A stretch of DNA of 62,320 nt from Methylococcales bacterium (GTDB lineage Bacteria > Pseudomonadota > Gammaproteobacteria > Methylococcales > Methylomonadaceae), in NCBI GenBank assembly GCA_026399095.1, contig JAPLRP010000010.1, forward strand, positions 1-62,320, in the 5' to 3' direction. Position numbers and translations under genes: made by a program. The notes below the pieces were generated by a model that worked only from the letters and a program-made list of their open reading frames with translations, did no database searches and was not told the origin of the DNA. Below are positions 3,291-61,541 of the stretch, piece after piece. Position 1 is the stretch's first letter. Every line of letters starts with the position of its first letter.

Positions 3291-4343
3291 TTATGGATAA
3301 AGGGCAATTATCTTTAAACCCAATTCTTCTTTAAAACCAAACATCAAGTTCATATTTTGAATCGCTTGCCCGGCTGCGCCCTTAACCAAATTATCAATAA
3401 CAGATAAAACCACGATTGTTTGCTGGCCTTGCGGCTGAAAAATTGAAATCTGACAATTATTGCTGCCTCGTACATTTCGAGTATCAGGATGAGAACCTTG
3501 TGGCAACACATCAACAAACTCTTCATGAATATAGCGCTGTTCATACAAAACTTGAATATCATCCAAACTGAATTGTTTAGCCTCCCTTTGCACTATAAGC
3601 TGCCCATATAAAGTCGCATGAATCCCTCGTATCATGGGCGTCAAATGAGGCACAAAAGTTAACCCAACCGACTCACCAGCGGCAATCTCAAGACCTTGCT
3701 TAATTTCCGGCAGATGCCTGTGCCCATTCACCGCGTAAGCTTTAAAACTCTCACCCGTTTCACTCATCAAAGTTGACAGTTCAGCCTTACGCCCTGCCCC
3801 GCTAACACCCGACTTTACATCCGCAATCAGATGCTTGGTATCAATCAAGCCATTTTCAATTAAGGGTAAAAAACCTAACTGAACAGCTGTCGGATAACAA
3901 CCTGGGCAAGCGATTAACTGCGCTTTTTTAATAGCATTACGATTGACTTCCGGCAAACCATAAACAGCCTCGGCAATTAAATCCGGGCAAGCATGCTCCA
4001 TACCATACCAATGACACCAGCCTTGCGCGTCTTTCAACCTAAAGTCCGCCGAAAGATCAATAACCTTTATGCCTTGAGCTAATAACTGCTCAGCCATCAA
4101 CATCGCCGTGCCATTGGGTGTTGCAAAAAAAACCACATCGCATTGGCTCAAGGTTTCACTATCAGGGACACTAAAAACCACATCAATATAGCCACGTAAA
4201 CTCGGGTATAACGCATCGACTCTTAATCCTGCATCGGTTCGTGAAGTGACCACGACCACCTCAACCTCGCCATGCAACGCTAATATTCTTAGTAACTCAA
4301 CCCCTGTATAACCTGTTCCGCCAACAATACCTACACGTATCAT
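3291..4343 (-). CDS. argC: N-acetyl-gamma-glutamyl-phosphate reductase
   Basis: Third step of arginine synthesis: NADPH-dependent reduction of N-acetylglutamyl-5-phosphate to the semialdehyde. The 350 residues start with the dinucleotide motif GGTGYTG (8-14). The catalytic cysteine C149 sits in ACPGCYPT, and the C-terminal dimerisation domain follows. Length matches the family. A good ribosome binding site (AGGAT) precedes the ATG. It is divergent from the quinone oxidoreductase gene and immediately upstream of erpA. Confidence 0.97.
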
Positions 4344-4364
4344 TTGTTTTATCCTATTAACACA

Positions 4365-4394
4365 TTGTTTATGAAAATAACTGGAGCCTATAAT
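4365..4394 (+). promoter_or_regulatory. Candidate promoter for the oxidoreductase-sulfurtransferase operon
   Basis: TTGTTT (4365-4370), an 18-base spacer and a perfect TATAAT (4389-4394), 32 bases upstream of the ATG at 4427. The -35 is poor, so this rests mainly on the -10. Confidence 0.45.
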
Positions 4395-4426
4395 AACCGC
4401 ATCTAACTTTATACTGAACTCAAGTT

Positions 4427-5422
4427 ATGCTTATCCACACCATGCGCGCCATCGAAATTGAAGCAGGGGCATTAAAACTAACTGAACGACCCATTCCCGT
4501 CCCGGCGAATTATCAAGTATTAATTAAAGTAGCCGCAGCGGGAGTTAATCGCCCGGACATTATGCAGCGTAAAGGTTTATATCCAGCACCGTCTGGTGCA
4601 TCTGATATTCCAGGATTAGAAATATCAGGCACTATCGCAGCAACCGGTGCTGCAATCATTCATTTAAAACCAGGTGATGCTGTTTGTGCGTTAGTGACAG
4701 GTGGCGGCTATGCAGACTATTGCTTAGCCACTGCATCACACTGCTTACCAATACCTAAAGGCATATCTACAACAGAAGCCGCCGCTTTACCTGAAGCTTT
4801 TTTTACTGTTTGGAGTAATGTATTTGACCGCGCGTGCTTATTAAATAACGAAACATTACTAGTACATGGCGGCAGCAGTGGCATTGGCACAACAGCGATA
4901 CAACTGGCTAAAGCCTTTAATGCAAAAATTATTGTTACTGCTGGATCAGAAGCTAAATGTCAATTTTGTTTGGCACTAGGCGCAGACGCCGCTATTAACT
5001 ACCAACAACACGATTTTGTCGAAGAAATAAGCAAACTTACTAATAACAATGGTGTTAACGTCATATTGGACATGGTCGGTGGCGATTATCTTCCGCGCAA
5101 TATTAAATGCATGGCTTTCGATGCAAGACTCGTACAAATCGCTATTCAAAATGGTGCAAAAGCTGAAATTAATCTGTTACCAATCATGTTAAAACGACTC
5201 ATCTTAACCGGATCAACATTAAGAGCTAGAAATGATGTTTTTAAAGCCGATATTGCTCAAAAACTCTTTCAAAAAGTCTGGCCTTTGCTGGCAAACGGTC
5301 AAATAAAACCTGTTATCCATTCCACTTTTACACTCGATGATGCAGCCAAAGCCCATGAACTTATGGAAAGCAGCCAGCACATTGGCAAAATAATCTTAGA
5401 GGTATCAACAAATGACTCATAA
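4427..5422 (+). CDS. NAD(P)H quinone oxidoreductase, PIG3 family
   Basis: Zinc-independent medium-chain dehydrogenase/reductase of 331 residues. It resembles the PIG3/TP53I3 quinone oxidoreductases, with the NRPDIMQRKGLYPAPSGASD signature near residues 41-60 and a Rossmann nucleotide motif GGSSGIGTTAIQLAK near 149-163. No catalytic zinc cysteine cluster is seen. It presumably reduces quinones or enones with NADPH in the cytoplasm; the true substrate cannot be read from sequence. Its stop overlaps the following sulfurtransferase by 11 bases, so the two are translationally coupled. An in-frame ATG at 4442 is an alternative start. Confidence 0.9.
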   Translation: MLIHTMRAIEIEAGALKLTERPIPVPANYQVLIKVAAAGVNRPDIMQRKGLYPAPSGASDIPGLEISGTIAATGAAIIHLKPGDAVCALVTGGGYADYCLATASHCLPIPKGISTTEAAALPEAFFTVWSNVFDRACLLNNETLLVHGGSSGIGTTAIQLAKAFNAKIIVTAGSEAKCQFCLALGADAAINYQQHDFVEEISKLTNNNGVNVILDMVGGDYLPRNIKCMAFDARLVQIAIQNGAKAEINLLPIMLKRLILTGSTLRARNDVFKADIAQKLFQKVWPLLANGQIKPVIHSTFTLDDAAKAHELMESSQHIGKIILEVSTNDS

Positions 5423-6266
5423 CACATTGATTTCTGCGGCTACACTTAACGAAAATATAAATAATCCAAAATGGGTCATTATAGATTGTCGATTTTCTCT
5501 GGCTAACAGTGATGCCGGTAGCTTTGCCTATCGTCACGGACACCTACCTAACGCGCGTTATGCACATTTAAATAATGACTTATCATCAGCTACAACCGAC
5601 TTTACAGGGCGCCATCCGTTACCCAACTTTACGCTTTTGACAAACAAACTAGGCGCATGGGGCATAAGTAACGACACACAGGTCGTTGTTTACGATGATG
5701 CCGGTGGCGCATTTGCAGGTCGTTTATGGTGGCTTTTAAACAGCTTGGGTCATCCTAAAGTTGCTGTTTTAAATGGCGGGATTCAAAATTGGCTAAAACA
5801 AGGTTATCCGCTAACCACTACCTTGCCAACCATACCACCAACCCCCTTTAGGCCTTATTTAAATCCAACCTACTGGTTAACTGCCACTCAAGTGCAAAAC
5901 AAGCTAGCCAAAAAATCTATATGCCTCATAGATGCTAGAACAGCTGAACGCTATCGGGGTGAACAAGAACCTATAGACCCTGTTGCTGGTCATATATCAG
6001 GTGCATTAAACCGCCCTTTTCAATTAAATCTTGATAACACAGGATTGTTTTTATCAGCCCAATCATTACACAGTCAATTTAAAAAACTTATCGGCACGAC
6101 CGCACCAGAACAAGTTGTTCATTATTGCGGTTCAGGCGTAACGGCCTGTCATAATTTACTGGCTATGGAAATCGCAGGCTTAACAGGGTCCAAACTTTAT
6201 GCGGGTTCTTGGAGCGAATGGATAAGAGACAAAAATCGGGGAGTTGCGAAGGGTAATGCAGTTTAA
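5412..6266 (+). CDS. sseA: 3-mercaptopyruvate sulfurtransferase
   Basis: Tandem-rhodanese protein of 284 residues: an inactive N-terminal domain (about 5-135) and a catalytic C-terminal domain (about 155-280). The active-site loop CGSGVTA places the persulfide cysteine at C239. CG(S/T)GVT is the mercaptopyruvate-type loop, as opposed to CRKGVT in thiosulfate sulfurtransferases. The ribosome binding site AGAGGT lies about eight bases before the ATG, inside the upstream gene. Coupling to an NADPH quinone reductase suggests a redox or sulfur-detoxification operon; that link is inference. Confidence 0.92.
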   Translation: MTHNTLISAATLNENINNPKWVIIDCRFSLANSDAGSFAYRHGHLPNARYAHLNNDLSSATTDFTGRHPLPNFTLLTNKLGAWGISNDTQVVVYDDAGGAFAGRLWWLLNSLGHPKVAVLNGGIQNWLKQGYPLTTTLPTIPPTPFRPYLNPTYWLTATQVQNKLAKKSICLIDARTAERYRGEQEPIDPVAGHISGALNRPFQLNLDNTGLFLSAQSLHSQFKKLIGTTAPEQVVHYCGSGVTACHNLLAMEIAGLTGSKLYAGSWSEWIRDKNRGVAKGNAV

Positions 6267-50640: not shown

Positions 50641-51576
50641 TTAGTTGTCGCCCAATAACTGCGTAATTTGAATCGCTGTTGCTAAGGCTCGCCTGCCTGC
50701 GTCACCAGAAACCAAAGGATTTTCTCCCGTTTGAATACAATTAATGAAATGTTTTATTTCTTCAAGCAAAGCATCGCCGCCTTCAAAAACAGATTCTTCG
50801 GTTTCAATTTCCGGAATGCCTGGAAACATTTCTTTTTTTCCAGTGCGATATTTAGTTAACACCCTATTTTGGAAATCAACGGAAATATAAGAACTGGGTC
50901 TGAAAAGGCGCATTTTGCGTTCCATTTTCATACTAATACGACTGGCTGTCACATTAGCAACACAACCATTTTTAAATAATAACCGAGCATTAGCAATATC
51001 AGTGCCCTGGGTCAATACAGCCGTGCCGCTGGCATCAATACGCGCCACTTCTGAATCGACTAACGCTAAAATTATATCAATGTCATGAATCATTAAATCA
51101 AGCACGACACTCACATCATTCGCACGAGGATTAAATGGCGATAACCGATGCGATTCAATGAACAATGGCTTTTCATCCTTATCCAATCCCAACACGGCAG
51201 GATTAAAGCGCTCTAAATGCCCAACTTGTAGAATCAAATTCTTTGCTTTAGCAATAGCAATTAACTCATCCGCTTCTGCAACTGTTACGGTAATAGGCTT
51301 CTCTACAAGAACATGCGTGCCCGCATTAAGAAAATGTTTTGAAACACTGTGATGCAAAGTCGTAGGTACAACAATACTGACTGCATCAACCTCACCCAGC
51401 AAAGTTTGATAATCTGTTAAAGCACGTGCACCATGCTTATCAGCAACTGCTTTTGCCGCCTCTTCATTAATATCGACTACAGCAACCAACTCACAATCAG
51501 GTAATGAAGCATATTTTTCAGCATGAAACTTACCTAAATAACCCGTACCGATAACAGCGCATCTAATTTTTTTCAT
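50641..51576 (-). CDS. gnnA: Gfo/Idh/MocA oxidoreductase, probable GnnA
   Basis: NAD-dependent oxidoreductase of 311 residues with Rossmann motif GTGYLGKFHAEKY (11-23), the EKP motif in 'VLVEKPIT' and 'DLMIHDIDIILAL' in the sugar-binding domain. Predicted to oxidise the 3-hydroxyl of UDP-GlcNAc, feeding GnnB. The pair gnnA-gnnB beside lpxB is the arrangement first associated with 2,3-diamino lipid A. Without this context the enzyme could be any sugar dehydrogenase of the family. Confidence 0.82.
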   Translation of the reverse strand: MKKIRCAVIGTGYLGKFHAEKYASLPDCELVAVVDINEEAAKAVADKHGARALTDYQTLLGEVDAVSIVVPTTLHHSVSKHFLNAGTHVLVEKPITVTVAEADELIAIAKAKNLILQVGHLERFNPAVLGLDKDEKPLFIESHRLSPFNPRANDVSVVLDLMIHDIDIILALVDSEVARIDASGTAVLTQGTDIANARLLFKNGCVANVTASRISMKMERKMRLFRPSSYISVDFQNRVLTKYRTGKKEMFPGIPEIETEESVFEGGDALLEEIKHFINCIQTGENPLVSGDAGRRALATAIQITQLLGDN

Positions 51577-52223: not shown

Positions 52224-52808
52224 ATGATAAAAACTGAAAACAGACCATTGTCAGATAGCGGGAATGACTTTAATCGAGATATCGAGTTAGTTGCGCGTAT
52301 CTGTAATTCAGATCAAAAGGCTCTTGAGCTTTTGTATAGCAGTTACTATAGCCGACTCTCTCGTTTTATTGCCCGAGTGATCACACGAGAAGACCTGATA
52401 GATGAAGTGATAAACGATGTCATGTATGTGGTATGGGAAAAGGCCAAATCGTATAATCATCAGTGCAAACCTTCCACATGGATTTTTGGTATTGCTTACA
52501 ATAGAGCTCGACAGGCACTCCGCGATGCCAATAGAAACAATGAAGAATCATTAGAAAATCTTATTGACAATGGAGTATCGTTTGAAGATGATAAATCAAT
52601 CTTAAAACAATTAGAAATGAGTGACTGGCTTTTACCGGCTCTAGGTAAGCTTACACCAGACCAAAGAGCCGTTATTGAGTTGACTTATTTTCAAGGACTC
52701 GCATATAGTGAAATAGCTGAAGTAATGGCTTGCCCTGAAAATACCGTAAAAACCCGAATGCACCATGCACGCAAAAAACTGGCTACTCTACTTACTAGTA
52801 CCGATTAA
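52224..52808 (+). CDS. ECF-family RNA polymerase sigma factor
   Basis: A 194-residue sigma-70 family protein: region 2 about 35-100 (ELLYSSYYSRLSRFIARVIT, 'VWEKAKSYNHQCKPSTWIFG') and region 4 about 140-190 ('LTPDQRAVIELTYFQGLAYS', 'ENTVKTRMHHARKKL'). Regions 1.1 and 3 are absent, as in ECF factors. It is followed 39 bases later by an anti-sigma factor with its own good ribosome binding site (GGAG). Target promoters are unknown. Confidence 0.94.
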   Translation: MIKTENRPLSDSGNDFNRDIELVARICNSDQKALELLYSSYYSRLSRFIARVITREDLIDEVINDVMYVVWEKAKSYNHQCKPSTWIFGIAYNRARQALRDANRNNEESLENLIDNGVSFEDDKSILKQLEMSDWLLPALGKLTPDQRAVIELTYFQGLAYSEIAEVMACPENTVKTRMHHARKKLATLLTSTD

Positions 52809-52847
52809 TTTTCTAAAACCGGACAACCTAAATATCTTGGAGAAAAA

Positions 52848-53591
52848 ATGACACAGCAAGATAAAAATAATAACCCCTATGCTTCACATGAAGATAGCTC
52901 ATTATTACTACCATGGTATATCAACAAGACATTAAATAGCAGTGAAATTGAGCTTGTAGAAAGCCATTTGAAAGTATGCCTTACCTGTAAACGTGAACTG
53001 GCAACCTTAAAAAAATTCTCATCTGCCTTTAAAACGGAAACCTCAAACCAAACTAATAAAGCTAATTTTAACAAGCTAATTGATCGAATTCACGGCACTA
53101 CCCATGCTGCAGCTAATGATGCCTTAAACAACGTAATCAAAGAAAAGCAACGCCACGCCTTACCCACAGCTAATCAAAGAAACAGCAGAGCACAAATAAA
53201 ACGCTATCGCTTACCAAGACCCGCTCTTGCCATGGCGGCGGCACTCATGCTTGCTTTGATAATACCCCGATTTATTGTTAAGGATAATAACCTGACGAAC
53301 GATTTTCATACGCTATCAAATGCTGAAATCCCCAACGTCAACAATAATTCAATCAGAGTTATCTTCCTAGATGACACGAATAAAACACACATTAACGACC
53401 TACTTGCGACTGTTCATGGCCGCATTACTAGCGGCCCTTCAGCACAAGGTGAATATTCTGTCGCTATTGAAAACAAACTCACACCTGAAAATGTGCAAGG
53501 AGTAATCGCCGAATTAAAAAAGAATACCAACATACTCTTTGCTGAACCTGCTTATGCGTTAGTTTCATCAGATAAAACCATTGGAAACTAA
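52848..53591 (+). CDS. Membrane anti-sigma factor with zinc finger and prodomain-like periplasmic domain
   Basis: A 247-residue single-span protein. The cytoplasmic zinc-binding anti-sigma motif is H40-x3-C44-x2-C47 (SHLKVCLTCK). The transmembrane helix is about 126-144 (ALAMAAALMLALIIPRFIV). The periplasmic domain (about 168-240) reads IRVIFLDDTNKTHINDLLAT, then 'GRITSGPSAQGEYSVAIENK', then 'VIAELKKNTNILFAEPAYAL'. This order (short strand, P-x-x-x-G, helix, I-xx-AEP) resembles subtilase I9-type prodomains. Predicted to hold the preceding sigma factor until a signal, perhaps the adjacent protease, releases it. Confidence 0.85.
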   Translation: MTQQDKNNNPYASHEDSSLLLPWYINKTLNSSEIELVESHLKVCLTCKRELATLKKFSSAFKTETSNQTNKANFNKLIDRIHGTTHAAANDALNNVIKEKQRHALPTANQRNSRAQIKRYRLPRPALAMAAALMLALIIPRFIVKDNNLTNDFHTLSNAEIPNVNNNSIRVIFLDDTNKTHINDLLATVHGRITSGPSAQGEYSVAIENKLTPENVQGVIAELKKNTNILFAEPAYALVSSDKTIGN

Positions 53592-53597
53592 GTTCTA

Positions 53598-54875
53598 ATG
53601 AAAGCGCTTTTGCTTTTACTATTCATTAATTTATCAATCATTACAGCACCCTGTAAAAGCACTGAAATTAGCCCAGAACAGGGATTAGACACAGCCCTTA
53701 ATGTTGACAATGCTGATCACTTGTTATTAGTCGGCTTTCCGGATCAATCTATAAACAGACCTCTAGGCGCCTCTCCTTCCACTTACAGGCGAAGAGGCAA
53801 TTATCAAAGTTCCGGCTGGAGTAAACGAATTTCTCAGCAAATTGCCGAAGACTATCACATAGAAAAACTAACTGAATGGCCTATGTCTGAAATAGGCGTC
53901 CATTGCATCGTCTATCAAGTTCCCGCAAATGCCTCAGTTAGTGACACCATCAAACAATTATCGCAAAATTCCGATATCAGTATTGTGCAAAATATGCATG
54001 TGTTTAAAACAAAAGCCCACGCAACTAATGACCCTTATTTTAAGCTCCAAGCCAATATGCGTGACATGCAAATTGACCAAGCCCATAGCAAAGCAACTGG
54101 CAAAGGCATTAACATAGCCATGATTGACACGGGTGTTGATTTAACACATCCAGACTTAATAGACCAAGTAGCAAAGCACGAAAACTTTTCTACCGAAATA
54201 TCGCCCGACTTCTCAAATGACCAACATGGCACTGCGATTGCAGGAATAATGGTGGCAAAAAAAGACAATGAGACCGGTATTGTTGGCATTGCACCCGATG
54301 CTAAATTAATTGCCTACAAAGCATGCTGGCCATCCATGCCTAATTCAATGGAAGCCGTTTGTAATAGTTATACCTTGTCATTAGCGGTAAATAGCGCCAT
54401 AAAATCAGGCGCCAAAATCTTGAATATGAGCCTTGGCGGACCTCACGATGAGTTTCTGGAAAAGTTATTAAACAAAGCAATTGAAAACGGGATGATTGTT
54501 ATTGCCGCAGACGAAGGCCAAGACTCTAAAAATGTTAATTTTCCAGCTTCTTTAAAAAATGTGCTATCAATTCAATCAATAAAAAAACCAGATACAGACC
54601 ATAAAGTTGTGGCACAAAGCCTTTCTGCTCCGGGCGAAAAAATACTTACAACATTACCTCATGGTACTTATGATTTTATATCGGGCAGCTCTATTGCAAC
54701 CGCAGAAGTATCAGGTATTATTGCCTTGCTATTGCAAATCAAGTCAGACCTTACATTTTCAGAAACCAGAGCACTATTACAACAATCTCAATTACCCAAC
54801 AAAGAGGGCTCTTTTACAGGTATTAATGCGAATACTGCTTTAGCAATCCTTTGCAAAACAGCTCATTGCTCATAA
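53598..54875 (+). CDS. Subtilisin-like serine peptidase (S8 family)
   Basis: A 425-residue secreted protease: signal peptide about 1-17, a prodomain-like segment (about 85-138, with 'HIEKLTEWPMSEIGVHCIVY' and 'LSQNSDISIVQNM'), then the catalytic domain with D177 (IDTGVDLTHPD), H210 (DQHGTAIAG) and S365 (SGSSIATAEVSG). The oxyanion-hole region usually 'AAGNEG' reads AADEG (303-307), so the asparagine is replaced by aspartate with one residue missing. Six bases separate it from the anti-sigma gene. Probably periplasmic and likely linked to signalling to the sigma factor; proteolytic competence is unproven. Confidence 0.88.
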   Translation: MKALLLLLFINLSIITAPCKSTEISPEQGLDTALNVDNADHLLLVGFPDQSINRPLGASPSTYRRRGNYQSSGWSKRISQQIAEDYHIEKLTEWPMSEIGVHCIVYQVPANASVSDTIKQLSQNSDISIVQNMHVFKTKAHATNDPYFKLQANMRDMQIDQAHSKATGKGINIAMIDTGVDLTHPDLIDQVAKHENFSTEISPDFSNDQHGTAIAGIMVAKKDNETGIVGIAPDAKLIAYKACWPSMPNSMEAVCNSYTLSLAVNSAIKSGAKILNMSLGGPHDEFLEKLLNKAIENGMIVIAADEGQDSKNVNFPASLKNVLSIQSIKKPDTDHKVVAQSLSAPGEKILTTLPHGTYDFISGSSIATAEVSGIIALLLQIKSDLTFSETRALLQQSQLPNKEGSFTGINANTALAILCKTAHCS

Positions 54876-55078: not shown

Positions 55079-55672
55079 GTGCCTCCTTTGAGCTCAAAAG
55101 AAAAAATCTTAAGTGCCGCGATTATTTTATTCGCGCAAAAAGGCTATTCAGGCCTATCCATGCGGCAATTGGCTCTGGCCGTTGAATTAAGCGTTGCAGC
55201 GATTTACCATCATTTCCCCGATAAAAACACCTTGTATCTCGAAGCGGTTCGCTTTGCATTTTCTGATAAAGAACAGGTTTTTGATCAGGTATGGAAATCT
55301 GACGGCTCTGCCGAAGAAAAATTAGGTCGGTTTATTCGTGCATTAATTGAAGTCATGCTTGAAGACCGTGACTTTCATCGTCTCATGCAACGTGAAATTT
55401 TGGAAGCTGATCCCGCAAGAATGCAATTATTAGCCCAAGGTGTTTTTAACAACCAATTTTGTTTACTAATGCAATTAGTGGCAGAGATGGCACCTGATCA
55501 GGACTCTCACCTATTGGCAACCTCTGTCATAGGTTTAGCCAAGTATTACATTGAATATCAGCCCTTACTCAAAAATTTTCCAGGCTGGAAACCCGAACAC
55601 GAAAAGCCTGAATTTATAGCTATGCACATCACTACCCTGTTATTAAACAGTTTTAAGGCAAAGGCGGCATGA
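55079..55672 (+). CDS. TetR-family regulator of the RND operon
   Basis: A 197-residue TetR-type repressor. The N-terminal helix-turn-helix (about 7-52) reads KEKILSAAIILFAQKGYSGL, then 'QLALAVELSVAAIYHHF'; a ligand-binding domain with hydrophobic helices follows. Translation starts at GTG (no strong ribosome binding site), and the gene overlaps the efflux outer-membrane gene by four bases. It probably represses its own operon; no clear operator palindrome was found upstream. Confidence 0.9.
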   Translation: MPPLSSKEKILSAAIILFAQKGYSGLSMRQLALAVELSVAAIYHHFPDKNTLYLEAVRFAFSDKEQVFDQVWKSDGSAEEKLGRFIRALIEVMLEDRDFHRLMQREILEADPARMQLLAQGVFNNQFCLLMQLVAEMAPDQDSHLLATSVIGLAKYYIEYQPLLKNFPGWKPEHEKPEFIAMHITTLLLNSFKAKAA

Positions 55673-57300
55673 AAAATAAAGTCAGTCTTTCACCATCCAC
55701 TTTAATAAAAAATAAAAGTAACTTACGAAGTACACCCCATTTAATTGCGGCAATACCGCTATTAATATCCGGCTGCATGCTGGGGCCTGATTTTACAAGC
55801 CCACCAAGCCCGGAAACAAAAAGTTACACGACCGATAAGCCAGCAGAGAGAATTACCACAAGCTCGTCCGTATCGGGTGCGGCGCAATCTTTAAGCTTGG
55901 GAAAAGATATTCAGGGACAATGGTGGACTTTATTTCACTCAACGCCCTTAAACAAACTCATTGAACAAGCCATGAAGCATAATCCTGATTTACAGGCCGC
56001 CTCATCAGCCTTAACCGAAGCCCAAGAAAATGCTTCTGTCCAAGAGAGTTCGTTATTCCCTGCCTTGGATGCAGGATTCTCAACCAGACGTCAAAAAATT
56101 TCCGGTGCTCAATTTGGCGCGCCTGGTTTTGAAGCGCCTGCTTACAATCTTTCAACAGCATCACTTCAGGTTGCCTATACCCTGGATGCTTTCGGCGCCA
56201 TTCGAAGACAAATCGAAGACTACGAAGCCCAAGCCGACTATCAGCGCTTCCAACTTGAAGGAACTTTCCTGACACTCGCGTCAAACGTTGTAACTACTGC
56301 CATACAAGAAGCCTCTTTAAGGGCACAGATTAGTGCTACGCAGGAGATTATCAGCGCTCAAGCCAAAGGACTTGAACTGGTCAAACAACAATTCGAATTG
56401 GGGGGCGCATCGAAAGTCGATGTCTTGTTACAACAAACCACACTGGAACAAACACGAACGAACTTACCGCCCTTAGAGCGACAACTAGCTCAAAATCGTC
56501 ATCGTTTAACAGTACTAACCGGCGAACTACCCAGCACCGAACTCGCCGCGCAATTCAAGCTCTCCGATCTGCATCTACCCGAGGCATTACCTCTTAGTTT
56601 GCCCTCCAAACTAGTGCAACAACGTCCCGATATACGTGCACAAGAAGCCCAATTACATTCAGCCAATGCGCAAATTGGTGTCGCTACCGCCCAACTTTTT
56701 CCTGACTTTACCATCAATGCCAATGTCGGCAGCATCGCGACCAAGGTCGGCGATTTATTTGTTCCTGGTAGCGCCATCTGGACCGTTGGTGGAAACTTGT
56801 TACAACCCGTCTTTCATGGCGGCGGACTCATTCATCAAAGACGTGCAGCGATAGCGGCTTACGAACAGGCAGCAGCACAATACCGAAGCACCGTATTACT
56901 GGCCTTCCAGAATGTTGCCGACACTTTGAGCGCGCTGGAGTTCGACGCCGTCGGATTGAAAACACAAGATGCTGCCGTAAAAGCAGCTTCGGATACCTTG
57001 GAACTGACTCAAATGCAATACAAAATCGGTGTTGTCAGTTATCTGCCACTACTGATTGCAGAGCGCAACTACCACCAGACACGTATTACCCAAATTACTG
57101 CGCAAACCCGACGCTACACCGATACAGCCGCCCTGTTCCAAGCGCTGGGCGGTGGTTGGTGGAACCGTCCGAATTTATCGGCCAATTTATTGGCTGAACA
57201 AAAACAACAAAAAACCAACAAAGACAAGACTGAAGAACAAGACCTCCTAGCACACGAACAAGACGTCTTTAACCTTCCATCGTGGATATCCAACTTTTAA
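55669..57300 (+). CDS. RND efflux outer-membrane lipoprotein (NodT/OprM family)
   Basis: TolC-like outer-membrane factor of 543 residues. A lipobox LISGC (C36) follows an extended N-terminus. Two OEP repeats form the coiled-coil and barrel (about 95-295 and 300-500), with 'PDIRAQEAQLHSANAQIGVA' in the second. A Lys/Gln-rich tail ends the protein. It forms the exit channel of the pump encoded downstream. Confidence 0.93.
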   Translation: MKNKVSLSPSTLIKNKSNLRSTPHLIAAIPLLISGCMLGPDFTSPPSPETKSYTTDKPAERITTSSSVSGAAQSLSLGKDIQGQWWTLFHSTPLNKLIEQAMKHNPDLQAASSALTEAQENASVQESSLFPALDAGFSTRRQKISGAQFGAPGFEAPAYNLSTASLQVAYTLDAFGAIRRQIEDYEAQADYQRFQLEGTFLTLASNVVTTAIQEASLRAQISATQEIISAQAKGLELVKQQFELGGASKVDVLLQQTTLEQTRTNLPPLERQLAQNRHRLTVLTGELPSTELAAQFKLSDLHLPEALPLSLPSKLVQQRPDIRAQEAQLHSANAQIGVATAQLFPDFTINANVGSIATKVGDLFVPGSAIWTVGGNLLQPVFHGGGLIHQRRAAIAAYEQAAAQYRSTVLLAFQNVADTLSALEFDAVGLKTQDAAVKAASDTLELTQMQYKIGVVSYLPLLIAERNYHQTRITQITAQTRRYTDTAALFQALGGGWWNRPNLSANLLAEQKQQKTNKDKTEEQDLLAHEQDVFNLPSWISNF

Positions 57301-57347
57301 CCTTTTATAAAATTTATGTTTAAACAAAATCCAGGCAGGAACAAAAA

Positions 57348-58478
57348 ATGATTAAACGTATGATCATTATGCTCATCATCGTTGGCATAATACTCGGAGG
57401 CATTTTTGGCTTCATCAGCTTTAAAGGACGCATGATTAAAGAATACATGGCGTCACAAGGCGAACCGATTCACACGGTTTCCACTATCACTGCCAACGCG
57501 ATGGATTGGTTACCCAAAATGGAAGCCGTCGGAAGCCTCCAAGCCTCTCAAGGAACGAATGTAAGCGCCGAAGTACCCGGCATCGTCGAAGAAATTTATT
57601 TCAAACAAGGCGATAACGTCAAACTGGGCATGCCCTTATTGCAACTACGCGCAAAGGACGAAATTGCCAAACTGGAAGCACTTAAAGCGACCGCAGAAAT
57701 CAATCGAATCACCTACAACCGCAACTTGGCGCAATTTGAAGTTAATGCCATCAGCAAACAAACGCTGGACATAGACAAAGCCAATCTTGAAGTGGCCACC
57801 GCTAATGTTAACCAACAACAAGCACTGCTTAATAAAAAACTGATACGCGCGCCCTTCACCGGCAAACTGGGCATTCGGCTCATCGATGTTGGTCAATATC
57901 TTGAAGCCGGCACTGCCATAAGCACATTACAGGCACTGGATACCATTTTTGTGGATTTTTTCCTCCCACAGCAAGCACTTTCGTCACTTAAAACCGGCCA
58001 ACGAATAACACTCAATTCTGATGCCTATCCAACTGATACATTTACCGGTGAGATTACTGTCATCAATCCAAAGGTTGATACCAATACCCGCAACGTAAAA
58101 ATAAGAGCCACGCTCAATAACCCCAACCATAAACTACTGCCCGGCATGTATGTAACTGTTAGCATTACCACCGGAAGTGCTCAACGCTACATCACCTTAC
58201 CTCGAACAACCATTACGTTTAACTCTTTCGGCTCAACCGTCTATAGACTTGAGAACAATGGTCAGGATGAAAAAGGCAAAGCCAAACTGATTGCCAAACA
58301 AAGCTTGGTCACTACCGGTGCTACACGTGGCGACCAAATCACCATTCTTACCGGTGTTAAAGAAGGTGAAACCATCGTAACGACCGGTCAAATAAAACTA
58401 CGCAATGGCTCACCGGTTACCGTCGACAACTCAATTCAACCCAGCAATGATGCTAACCCGCAACCTAGCGACCAATAA
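57348..58478 (+). CDS. RND efflux periplasmic adaptor (membrane fusion protein)
   Basis: A 376-residue adaptor with an N-terminal hydrophobic anchor (about 5-25), lipoyl half-motifs ('VSAEVPGIVEEIYFKQGDNV', 'LLNKKLIRAPFTGKLGIRLI'), a helical hairpin between them, and beta-barrel/membrane-proximal domains to the C-terminus. A clean AGGA ribosome binding site precedes the ATG. It bridges the inner-membrane pump and the outer-membrane channel. Confidence 0.94.
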   Translation: MIKRMIIMLIIVGIILGGIFGFISFKGRMIKEYMASQGEPIHTVSTITANAMDWLPKMEAVGSLQASQGTNVSAEVPGIVEEIYFKQGDNVKLGMPLLQLRAKDEIAKLEALKATAEINRITYNRNLAQFEVNAISKQTLDIDKANLEVATANVNQQQALLNKKLIRAPFTGKLGIRLIDVGQYLEAGTAISTLQALDTIFVDFFLPQQALSSLKTGQRITLNSDAYPTDTFTGEITVINPKVDTNTRNVKIRATLNNPNHKLLPGMYVTVSITTGSAQRYITLPRTTITFNSFGSTVYRLENNGQDEKGKAKLIAKQSLVTTGATRGDQITILTGVKEGETIVTTGQIKLRNGSPVTVDNSIQPSNDANPQPSDQ

Positions 58479-58484
58479 TCTGTC

Positions 58485-61400
58485 ATGAATTTTACCGATA
58501 TTTTTATCCGCAGACCCATACTGTCCACAGTCGTCAGCATGATGCTGTTAGTATTAGGATTACGCGCGCTAAGTGAACTCCCCGTATTGCAATATCCGCG
58601 CACCGAAAATGCCATCGTCACCATCACAACCGCTTACTATGGCGCTGACCCGGATATTGTCGCGGGCTTTATCACCACCCCGCTGGAAAACAACATCGCT
58701 CAGGCAAACGGAATTGACTACATCACCTCCACCAGCCAAAACAGCGTCAGTACGATAACGGCTAATCTCACCCTTAATTTTGATCCCAACAAAGCCCTGA
58801 CTGAAATCAATGCCAAGGTCAACGCCGTACTCAATCAATTACCACCAGAATCACAAACACCCGTTCTTAGCGTAAAAATTGGTGAAACCATTGATGCCAT
58901 GTACATCGGTTTTTCCAGTGATGTTTTATCCGCCAACAACATCACCGATTATTTAATACGCTCCGTACAACCCAGACTCCAAGGCATAGAAGGTATACAG
59001 ACCGCAGAATTACTGGGCGGTAAAAACTTTTCCCTACGCGCCTGGTTAGATCCCAATAAATTAGCCTCCTACTCACTGACTGCCACTGACATCAGTGCGG
59101 CACTCGCCAAAAACAACTACATTGCCGGACTGGGCACAACCAAAGGTCAAATGGTACAAGTCAACCTGACCGCCTCAACCAGTCTGCATTCAGTCACAGA
59201 ATTTGAGCAGTTAATCGTCAAACAACAAGATGGCGCAATCATTCGGTTAAAAGATGTCGCCAAGGTTACGCTGGGCGCCGATGATTATGAAGGCAGTGTT
59301 TCCTTTGATGGCAACAAAGCCGTTTATATTGGACTACAGGTTGCCTCAAGCGCCAATTTGCTGGAAGTGATTGAAAGAGTTAGAAAAGTTTTTCCTAATA
59401 TCCAAGCAGAACTACCCGAAGGCATCAGTGGAAAAATTGTTTACGATTCAACCAAATTCGTTGATAGCTCAATTCAAGAAGTTATCCATACCCTTATCGA
59501 AGCCTTACTGATTGTCACGCTAGTGGTCTTTGCCTTTCTGGGCTCACCCCGCTCTGTGCTGATTCCGGTTATTGCCATACCGCTATCGCTGATTGGTACC
59601 TTTACCATCATGTTAATGCTTGGTTTTTCGATTAATTTACTGACACTGCTCGCCTTGGTACTGGCTATCGGACTGGTCGTTGATGATGCCATCATCGTTG
59701 TCGAAAACGTCAACCGACATCTTGAAGACGGCATGCAACCCATTCCCGCTTCGCTGCTTGCCGCCAGAGAGTTAACCGGTCCTATTATTGCAATGACCAT
59801 TGTATTGATAGCCGTTTATATTCCGGTTGGTTTTCAAGATGGACTGACTGGCGCCTTATTCTCTGAATTTGCTTTTACAGTCGTCGCGGCCGTAACAGTT
59901 TCAGCAATTGTTGCACTGACTTTATCACCCATGATGAGCTCTAAACTACTGAAAGCTCACACAACTGATCGAAGTGGCTGGGAAGAACGCATCGTCGACT
60001 TTATAGATCGCAAGGTCTTTGCGATGCAACATGCCTATTCAAGAACACTGCACGGCTCACTTAATTATTTACCCGTCACGACTTTATTTGCCGTCATTAT
60101 CCTGGGTAGTATTTACTTTCTTTACAGTAGCTCCAATCGAGAACTGGCTCCTCAAGAAGATCAAGGTGTCATTATCACCATGTCTACCTCAGCGCCTGAC
60201 GCGACGCTTCAACAGCGCTTGGTCTATGCCGATGAAGTTTACAACAAATTTATTAAACACCCGGAAAGCGATCATGTCTTTCAACTAAACGGCCCGGGAC
60301 TTTCCATCGCTGGTATGGTACTTAAACCTTGGCATGAGCGCACACAAACAGCAACCGAACTACAACCCCTCATTCAACAAGAAATGAATGAAATAGCCGG
60401 CGTTCGTGTCGCCGCATTTCAACCACCACCCTTACCGGGCAGTAGCGGGCTACCTGTCCAATTTGTGATTGGCACCACCGAATCGTTTGACCAATTAAAC
60501 ACCGTAACCCAACAGTTTATGCAAGAAGCACAAAAAAGCGGCATGTTTATCTTTCTTGATAAAGACTTAAAAGTTGATCAACCCCAATCACAAGTTGACA
60601 TTGATCGTAATAAAACCGCTCTGCTAGGACTCAGTATGCAGGATGTTGGCTCATCTTTGGCCTCTATTTTGGGTGGCGGTTATGTCAATTATTTCAGTAT
60701 GACCGGGCGATCCTACCGCGTCATTCCGCAAGCGCAACAAACCTCAAGACTCAATGCCGACCAATTACTTAACTTCTACATTCGTGCAGCAGACGGCGCA
60801 ACCGTTCCTCTATCCACCATTGCGACAATCAGCACCAAAACCGTACCGCAATCACTTAATCATTTTCAGCAACTCAACGCCGCCATCATTTCTGGCGTCC
60901 CTTTTCCAGGTGTAACCGTTGGCGATGCCCTTAATACCTTAAAAACAATCGCTGCCAAGACATTGCCCCCTGCTTACACGGTTGATTATGGCGGACAATC
61001 CAGGCAACTGGAACAAGAATCCAGTAGCTTTATTTTTACCTTCGGCTTTGCTTTAATCATTATTTTTTTAGCATTGGCCGCACAATTTGAGAGCTTCCGG
61101 GACCCACTGATCATTTTGGTATCCGTCCCCATGTCTATCGCCGGCGCATTGATATTTATTGCCTTGGGTATTGGTGGAGCCACTTTAAATATCTATACCG
61201 AAGTTGGTTTGGTTACCCTGATGGGCTTAATCAGTAAACATGGCATCCTGATCGTCGAATTTGCCAATAACAAACAAAAAGAAGGCTTAACCAAACGCGA
61301 GGCGATAGAAAGTGCCGCCGCTATAAGATTACGTCCTATTTTAATGACCACCGCCGCCATGGTCCTAGGCGTTTTACCGTTAATCTTTGCTACAGGTGCG

Positions 61401-61541
61401 GGCGCGGTATCGCGTTTTAACATCGGCTTGGTTATAGCCACCGGTATAGCAATCGGTACTTTATTTACCTTATTTGTAGTACCTGCCGTTTATTTATTAA
61501 TAGGACAGAATCACCCCAAGGAAATAAAAAACCCTGAATAG
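58485..61541 (+). CDS. RND multidrug efflux transporter (HAE1 type)
   Basis: A 1018-residue AcrB/MdtB-like proton antiporter with 12 helices and two large periplasmic loops. The TM4 aspartate pair D400-D401 (LVVDDAIIVVEN) is the proton relay. 'IFIRRPILSTVVSMMLLVLG' opens the protein and 'GLISKHGILIVEFANN' marks TM10. Together with TetR, outer-membrane factor and adaptor it makes a complete self-regulated efflux operon. Drug specificity cannot be read from sequence. Confidence 0.96.
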   Translation: MNFTDIFIRRPILSTVVSMMLLVLGLRALSELPVLQYPRTENAIVTITTAYYGADPDIVAGFITTPLENNIAQANGIDYITSTSQNSVSTITANLTLNFDPNKALTEINAKVNAVLNQLPPESQTPVLSVKIGETIDAMYIGFSSDVLSANNITDYLIRSVQPRLQGIEGIQTAELLGGKNFSLRAWLDPNKLASYSLTATDISAALAKNNYIAGLGTTKGQMVQVNLTASTSLHSVTEFEQLIVKQQDGAIIRLKDVAKVTLGADDYEGSVSFDGNKAVYIGLQVASSANLLEVIERVRKVFPNIQAELPEGISGKIVYDSTKFVDSSIQEVIHTLIEALLIVTLVVFAFLGSPRSVLIPVIAIPLSLIGTFTIMLMLGFSINLLTLLALVLAIGLVVDDAIIVVENVNRHLEDGMQPIPASLLAARELTGPIIAMTIVLIAVYIPVGFQDGLTGALFSEFAFTVVAAVTVSAIVALTLSPMMSSKLLKAHTTDRSGWEERIVDFIDRKVFAMQHAYSRTLHGSLNYLPVTTLFAVIILGSIYFLYSSSNRELAPQEDQGVIITMSTSAPDATLQQRLVYADEVYNKFIKHPESDHVFQLNGPGLSIAGMVLKPWHERTQTATELQPLIQQEMNEIAGVRVAAFQPPPLPGSSGLPVQFVIGTTESFDQLNTVTQQFMQEAQKSGMFIFLDKDLKVDQPQSQVDIDRNKTALLGLSMQDVGSSLASILGGGYVNYFSMTGRSYRVIPQAQQTSRLNADQLLNFYIRAADGATVPLSTIATISTKTVPQSLNHFQQLNAAIISGVPFPGVTVGDALNTLKTIAAKTLPPAYTVDYGGQSRQLEQESSSFIFTFGFALIIIFLALAAQFESFRDPLIILVSVPMSIAGALIFIALGIGGATLNIYTEVGLVTLMGLISKHGILIVEFANNKQKEGLTKREAIESAAAIRLRPILMTTAAMVLGVLPLIFATGAGAVSRFNIGLVIATGIAIGTLFTLFVVPAVYLLIGQNHPKEIKNPE

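Follow-up and report, generated by a model that had tools for sequence, protein, structure and literature searches.

Here, we describe a three-gene unit in a 62,320-nucleotide stretch of a Methylococcales genome (GCA_026399095.1, contig JAPLRP010000010.1, forward strand; hereafter the window), in which an extracytoplasmic function (ECF) sigma factor, a single-span anti-sigma factor and an S8 subtilase are encoded side by side (52224-54875). The three genes stand together on one strand at 56 of the 63 S8 loci that remain after the removal of duplicates, the periplasmic domain of the anti-sigma factor resembles the prodomain of the neighbouring protease, and this protease retains its catalytic triad and lacks the oxyanion-hole asparagine. 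We propose, with a probability of roughly one half, that the unit is an ECF envelope-signalling module whose anti-sigma factor docks by its prodomain-like domain on a dedicated, low-turnover S8 protease.

As the sequence-only reading of this DNA had stated, the three open reading frames (ORFs) are adjacent on the + strand with intergenic gaps of 39 and 6 bases, and the set contains no additional gene. The first ORF (52224..52808, +) encodes a protein of 194 aa matching Sigma70_r2 (4.9e-9), Sigma70_r4_2 (6.6e-18) and, over cut-off, TIGR02937 (1.3e-26); the presence of sigma-70 regions 2 and 4 in so short a protein identifies it as an ECF sigma factor. The second ORF (52848..53591, +; 247 aa) was assigned as an anti-sigma factor because of its position, its zinc-finger motif, and a match to NF052375 ("anti-sigma factor") at 1.3e-5, which is below cut-off. 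zf-HC2 matches it only at E 0.042, below the Pfam cut-off; despite this score, it combines the H-x3-C-x2-C motif (residues 40-47; 52965..52988, +) with one membrane span (residues 126-144; 53223..53279, +; mean hydropathy 2.3 over 19 residues), as expected for a zf-HC2-type anti-sigma factor. The next-best separate hydrophobic stretch reaches a hydropathy of 0.5, leaving a single span. In a 19-row alignment of anti-sigma factors, H40-x3-C44-x2-C47 is invariant and H14 is kept in 90% or more of the rows, and the protein presumably binds and holds the sigma factor through this cytoplasmic zinc-finger part. The zinc-finger cysteines are absent in some distant sets (e.g. L140, L145, and L066), in which the periplasmic domain is retained. 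The third ORF (53598..54875, +) encodes an S8 subtilase of 425 aa (Peptidase_S8, 2.1e-36).

The periplasmic domain of the anti-sigma factor (residues 167-234; 53346..53549, +) was predicted by AlphaFold2 to fold in the order beta-alpha-beta-beta-alpha-beta (strands 16-21, 39-43, 50-55, and 77-82, helices 27-35 and 61-72), with pLDDT block means of 90-94 over the core and a mean of 80.2 for the whole model. The N-terminus of the protease was modelled with a mean pLDDT of 84.0 and shows the same order (strand 3-9, a short helix and a low-confidence loop, helix 34-46, strands 50-57 and 62-68, helix 75-83, and strand 90-93). The sequence-only reading had recognised a common layout in these two regions, and the predicted folds and a profile match bear this out. 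BLASTP of the single sequences found no likeness between the anti-sigma domain and the S8 prodomain, the best hit (E 0.82) lying elsewhere in the protease. A comparison of profiles by hhalign aligned 19 anti-sigma domains with 18 S8 prodomains over 38 columns (probability 62, E 7.8e-5) and, with 57 and 63 rows, respectively, over 61 columns (probability 91.3, E 9.7e-7). The probability was 6.1 or less in every case for nine other targets, comprising the reversed prodomain, three catalytic pieces, two sigma pieces, a zinc-finger piece, the Gcw family described below, and a single I9 prodomain stretch. Further indications come from Pfam and the PDB. PF22148 (Fervidolysin_NPro-like) matches 15 of the 19 anti-sigma domains at E values up to 1 (best 2.5e-4), other families match at most two of the 19, and the domain of locus L230 reaches 17.4 bits, with the cut-off at 21; the window's own anti-sigma domain is without a prodomain match in Pfam, PF22148 included. 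In Foldseek searches of the PDB, subtilisin propeptides and the inhibitor POIA1 appear at ranks 2, 3, 4, 10, 14, and 26 (among them 1spb_P, 1scj_B, 3cnq_P, and 1itp), and PDB sequence searches with the domain, as a single sequence or as a profile, returned no meaningful match. As judged from these profiles and models, the data suggest that the domain is prodomain-like, "prodomain" proper being a stronger term than they allow, and its likeness to the partner's prodomain suggests that the protease and the anti-sigma factor may interact directly.

The earlier idea of a prodomain-like sensor thus holds for the fold and for the profile match to the S8 prodomain; the I9 family that it named is not the closest one in Pfam, and PF05922 (Inhibitor_I9) matched none of the window proteins, 19 anti-sigma domains, and 18 S8 prodomains tested. 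The recurrent weak match is to PF22148, on the anti-sigma side only, and the sole PF05922 match of the genome is in another subtilase (L001, G000:C78), which is not linked to a sigma factor and has the usual asparagine (VAAGND). Two details of the protease side also need correction: its "P-M-x2-G" stretch is actually P-M-x3-G, and its prodomain begins at about residue 41, not 85.

The protease starts with a hydrophobic N-terminus that is likely a signal peptide (53598..53660, +), many relatives have similarly hydrophobic starts, and 9 of 64 S8 rows contain a lipobox pattern; judging by such sequence features, the S8 protein and the C-terminus of the anti-sigma factor should both be periplasmic. 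Its own prodomain comprises residues 41-139 (53718..54014, +), and the S8 model, prodomain included, aligns in Foldseek with unprocessed pro-subtilisins (pro-subtilisin E 3whi, pro-Tk-subtilisin) and with fervidolysin. None of the 18 S8 prodomains tested matched a Pfam prodomain family, and a PDB sequence search with their profile found no meaningful match. The subtilase fold and the Asp-His-Ser triad are present, the catalytic residues lying in the motifs MIDTGVD (54120..54140, +), DQHGTAI (54219..54239, +), and SGSSIAT (54681..54701, +) and being conserved in every aligned S8 ORF that holds the respective part. The oxyanion-hole asparagine, located by alignment to AAAGN of thermitase, is replaced by glycine in the window (IAADEGQ; 54501..54521, +).

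This replacement is a property of a whole clade. In a tree of 65 rows, which was built by a quick method with a long-branched outgroup and has many weak inner forks, 54 S8 proteins including that of the window form one clade (SH-aLRT 95); the split S8 of locus L027 was excluded. The asparagine is absent in 53 of these 54 members, its position being occupied by G, P, E, D, A, K, R, T, Q or I, and the sole exception (L019, AATNN) was counted as Asn even though the preceding glycine is absent. All sigma-linked S8 proteins outside this clade have the asparagine (16/16). These include a second clade of eight proteins from other classes of the phylum (SH-aLRT 96, Asn in 8/8) and, outside the tree, eight further S8 proteins beside domain-bearing anti-sigma factors (Asn in 8/8), most of which have a longer N-terminus and one of which (L236) is cut soon after the asparagine. 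Two changes at the oxyanion position are required on the tree. Genome classes were graded as the same class or the same phylum as the window; by this grading, the clade without the asparagine extends past the window's class (L135 and L137), and the genomes that keep the asparagine are, at a guess, alphaproteobacteria. In subtilisin, replacing the oxyanion asparagine slows catalysis by orders of magnitude and does not abolish activity. To judge from the sequences, the kept triad together with the absent asparagine is easier to reconcile with a protease that is slow or limits itself than with a dead one, and the absence speaks against a fully active degradative protease.

The unit is conserved well beyond the window. 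Within a set consisting of the window's genome and 60 relatives, 17 of 61 genomes have a match to the anti-sigma factor and 18 to the S8 protein. At the 63 S8 loci, counted after the removal of nine duplicates, the survey of co-occurrence that the sequence-only reading had proposed found the S8 gene last in 53 of the 56 complete sets and first in three (L088, L138, and L139); the linkage of sigma, anti-sigma, and S8 genes thus survives their reordering. We counted as having a sigma gene the loci L033 and L038 (sigma in two pieces) and L041 (sigma shortened), and as having an anti-sigma gene, by ORF size and place, L065 (weak match, 3e-6) and L063 (unmatched), and left outside the 63 loci L039, where S8 is fragmented, and L043, where it is missing. 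Seven S8 loci lack the full set, of which L042, L070, L082, and L092 lie at contig ends; L030, L075, and L152 are considered below. At L027 and L071, the S8 gene is split into two overlapping frames, reflecting a pseudogene or an assembly error. Broader surveys recovered the S8 protein at 12 places in 11 of 369 genomes of the class (E 1e-60), with the set at 12 of 12, and at 22 places in 21 of 398 genomes of the phylum (E 1e-50), where 13 of 18 new places were examined and the set was found at 13 of 13. The unit is hence present in the window's class and in other classes of the phylum, with the proviso that the window's family served as the seed of the S8 searches, which carry little information on other S8 families. 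Among the named loci, 19 of 27 bear the names of Methylococcales methanotrophs, e.g. Methylobacter, Methylomonas, and Crenothrix, and the other eight comprise bins of Gammaproteobacteria, a member of the Steroidobacteraceae, and one bin each under the labels Nitrospira and Acidobacteria. Bacteria with the unit include apparent methane oxidisers and relatives of these. Given this conservation over the loci gathered, we reject a chance adjoining of the three genes. Both outcomes that would have spoken against the earlier proposal, a structural dissimilarity of the two domains and a lack of conservation in relatives, were absent, the former as far as predicted structures tell.

When the anti-sigma domain alone was used as the query, 32 places in 29 of 339 genomes were found, 20 of which encode proteins that are anti-sigma-like by ORF size. 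The neighbour of these 20 is an S8 protein in 14 cases, an ORF cut by a contig end in one (G238, whose truncated S8 was excluded from the S8 count), a C14 peptidase in one, and no peptidase in four; the domain accompanies S8 usually, not always. The C14 case belongs to the window's family (L242, G308:C1:2020500-2029500, 3368-5978, +) and encodes a sigma factor, a domain-bearing anti-sigma factor and then, in place of S8, a caspase-like protein (Peptidase_C14, 3.3e-37). Three genomes of one family (L230, L231, and L232) encode a sigma factor and a domain-bearing anti-sigma factor with no adjoining S8, and at L230 and L231 a gene resembling the oxidoreductase at 50641-51576 of the window adjoins the anti-sigma gene. 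At loci L234-L241, the sigma-linked S8 is of a third kind, marked by a long N-terminal region; at L234, L236, L237, and L238, among others, two genes of ~380-400 and 590-700 aa lie upstream, and at L237 neither of the two reaches a Pfam cut-off. Six weak domain matches in ORFs of ~500 aa (L244-L249) came without any S8 match and were judged to be chance hits; six further weak domain matches, in G231, G191, G224, G112, G188, and G136, lie outside this group.

In addition to the absent asparagine, our analysis adds to the earlier note a link to Gcw_chp proteins, which Pfam names as of unknown function and which we take to be outer-membrane barrels of the TorF porin type. With a profile built from eight PF09694 neighbours, a Gcw match was found no more than 1.5 kb from the sigma or S8 gene at 34 of the 54 loci of the Asn-less clade, 32 of these 34 within 0.53 kb, and at none of the eight loci of the Asn-bearing clade. 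No Gcw match was found at eight further Asn-bearing loci, of which L236 and L237 end close to S8. Six of the 20 Asn-less-clade loci without Gcw reach a contig end (L033, L035, L042, L070, L082, and L092), and a short apparent Gcw piece at L041, overlapping the sigma ORF in another frame, was excluded from the counts. Pfam assigned PF09694 to 17 of the 20 neighbours tested, the exceptions being L062 (weak OMP_b-brl match), L064, and L065. One genome (G382) has two near-identical copies of the full set (L056 and L057), of which Gcw adjoins only one. In the window the gene is not adjacent; the genome has a single copy elsewhere (G000:C18:31420-31980). Across the 61 genomes, the 18 with S8 have one Gcw match in 11 cases, two in G038, three in G045, and none in five, and the two genes co-occur (both 13, S8 only 5, Gcw only 9, neither 34; p 2.4e-4, kinship ignored), as they do within the genus (both 8, S8 only 4, Gcw only 1, neither 22; Fisher p 1.6e-4, kinship ignored). 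Several of the genomes with Gcw only have much stronger PF09694 matches, perhaps representing another subfamily. In G008, G009, G022, and G029, the Gcw gene adjoins an oxidoreductase-like gene, a look-alike of which (50641-51576) flanks the window's set, suggesting that an older four-gene cluster was split.

We envisage the following mechanism, in which sigma binding, docking, inhibition, clipping, and the signal are what we infer. The anti-sigma factor would keep the sigma factor in the cytoplasm via its zinc-finger part, and its prodomain-type domain would dock in trans on that face of the exported S8 protein which bears the active site, by analogy with prodomains and prodomain-like inhibitors such as POIA1. 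The protease, with its triad retained and the oxyanion asparagine absent in the window's clade, would act as a low-turnover regulatory enzyme; once freed and matured, it would most likely clip the anti-sigma factor at site 1, whereupon a membrane protease, such as the M50 protein of this genome, could complete the cleavage and release the sigma factor. The earlier reading had envisaged a direct protease-inhibitor switch, in which the activity of the protease or its occupancy by misfolded proteins would free the sigma factor, instead of an RseP/DegS cascade; as the same genome has a strong M50 match (3.7e-70, 455-aa frame), a site-2 step is available and an RseP-type cascade is possible. In the window's clade, the Gcw_chp protein, probably an outer-membrane barrel, would be the likely client or signal source. 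This mechanism is favoured by the prodomain-like predicted fold and the profile match, by the persistence of the unit in both gene orders and in several classes, by the periplasmic domain that is retained where the zinc-finger cysteines are gone, by the S8 neighbour of 14 of the 20 anti-sigma-like proteins, by the conserved triad, and by Gcw genes close to S8 even at L075 and L152, where sigma is absent. A more far-reaching version, which we consider rather doubtful, is that a clade of subtilases shed the oxyanion asparagine and, with the triad kept, turned into slow proteases for signalling, each under two prodomains, its own in cis and that of the anti-sigma factor in trans, so that the module would read the state of the Gcw_chp barrel and competition of the prodomains for one active site would set the activity of the ECF sigma factor.

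Several observations weigh against the proposed mechanism. At locus L030 (G008:C201), the anti-sigma and S8 genes are present and no sigma gene was found upstream, and L075 and L152 have S8 without either partner. The anti-sigma-like proteins without a neighbouring peptidase (G151, G373, G360, and the second place in G272, a genome with the full set at another place) imply that the domain may also act with other partners. The upstream regions of sigma and Gcw genes have no common promoter motif above the commonest shuffled patterns (38 regions, eight shuffles). The absent asparagine makes strong proteolysis unlikely. A prodomain reaches the S1 site with its C-terminal tail, and the tails of the anti-sigma factors often appear too short for this: past the last strand, that of the window comprises residues 237-247 (53556..53588, +), and from the conserved Glu of that strand to the ORF end there are 15 residues in the window and 3-28 in the 58 matching ORFs. 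In Foldseek, the first row is EF-1 beta, none of the hits reaches E 0.001 or better, and the propeptides stand among other ferredoxin-like folds. Mildly unfavourable is also the failure of the anti-sigma profile to match the single I9 stretch (probability 6.1), as this is a genuine prodomain, taken from the genome's other subtilase, and could have been expected to match, although as a single sequence. This last point and the EF-1 beta, ribosomal S6, and ACT domain hits at E-values similar to those of the propeptides would suit a generic ferredoxin-like sensor that resembles prodomains by common fold only, as would the weakness of the PF22148 matches and their absence for the window's own sequence. 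We regard such a sensor as very improbable, since the 61-column alignment of the domain profile with that of the partner's prodomain stands far above all nine other comparisons and most of the 19 members match one and the same prodomain family.

The main competitor to clipping is that the S8 protein is a near-dead protease acting as a binding partner, which would hold the anti-sigma domain until a ligand or misfolded barrel displaces it, with no cleavage. The nearly clade-wide absence of the asparagine is in keeping with this, and short anti-sigma tails could occupy the groove uncut; the retention of D, H, and S over long divergence argues otherwise, because a pure scaffold should lose its triad, as does the asparagine found in every sigma-linked S8 outside the clade, and we consider a role without cleavage unlikely. 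Next comes the possibility that S8 is a mere operon output, made when the sigma factor is active, with the anti-sigma domain being a feedback probe or a relic of shared ancestry that makes no contact with S8. The predominant last position of the S8 gene, the four anti-sigma-like proteins without an adjoining peptidase, and the S8 genes with Gcw and without sigma at L075 and L152 would all fit. An absent oxyanion asparagine would be odd for an effector protease, however, S8 comes first in three sets, and the likeness of the domain to the partner's own prodomain far exceeds the other comparisons; a simple output is thus quite improbable in our view.

Directly downstream of the unit (55079-61541), the window encodes a TetR-type regulator followed, by the look of the translations, by an outer-membrane factor, a membrane-fusion protein, and an RND-type pump. 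Look-alikes of the last three are also found downstream at L028, and of the first two of these at L027.

If the anti-sigma factor does dock by its prodomain-like domain, evolution would have made a signalling pair out of a protease and its inhibitor, and the question of how an ECF sigma factor is activated would reduce to a binding experiment on two small proteins. The clade-wide absence of the asparagine with the triad kept lets one ask, in a natural experiment, how slow a regulatory protease may be, and Gcw_chp would gain its first functional context. In the literature on ECF and anti-sigma factors with subtilases or prodomains, and on TorF and Gcw_chp, we did not find this set described in the parts of the sources available, and an ECF classification may already list it. 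Passages of PMC8999054 place subtilases close to ECF factors such as ECF54 with no anti-sigma factor, and the subtilase has been proposed to regulate the ECF factor; the unit described here differs in having an anti-sigma factor, and one with a prodomain-like domain. With the sigma-E response of Escherichia coli (RseA, DegS, RseP; PMC8103513), it shares an ECF sigma factor, a single-span anti-sigma factor that has a periplasmic part, a likely site-1 enzyme of the serine protease type, an M50 protein in the genome, and a possible link to an outer-membrane protein. It differs from that system in that an S8 protease, not an HtrA-family PDZ protease, is encoded with the pair, and in that the sensor is a prodomain-like part of the anti-sigma factor, with no further gene in the window's set. 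I9 prodomains, the N-terminal prodomain of fervidolysin, and POIA1 are similar to this sensor in fold order, as PDB neighbours, and through the weak PF22148 matches, whereas here the domain belongs to an anti-sigma protein with a membrane span and a zinc-finger part and is matched by Pfam below cut-off or not at all. The Csp proteins of clostridial germination likewise are S8 proteins in signalling with altered catalytic parts. CspC, the receptor in Clostridium difficile germination to which a purely binding S8 could be likened, is called a pseudoprotease there and lacks the triad, whereas the S8 protein of the unit keeps its triad and lacks the oxyanion asparagine. Overall, the absent asparagine and the Gcw_chp neighbour of the unit deserve follow-up.

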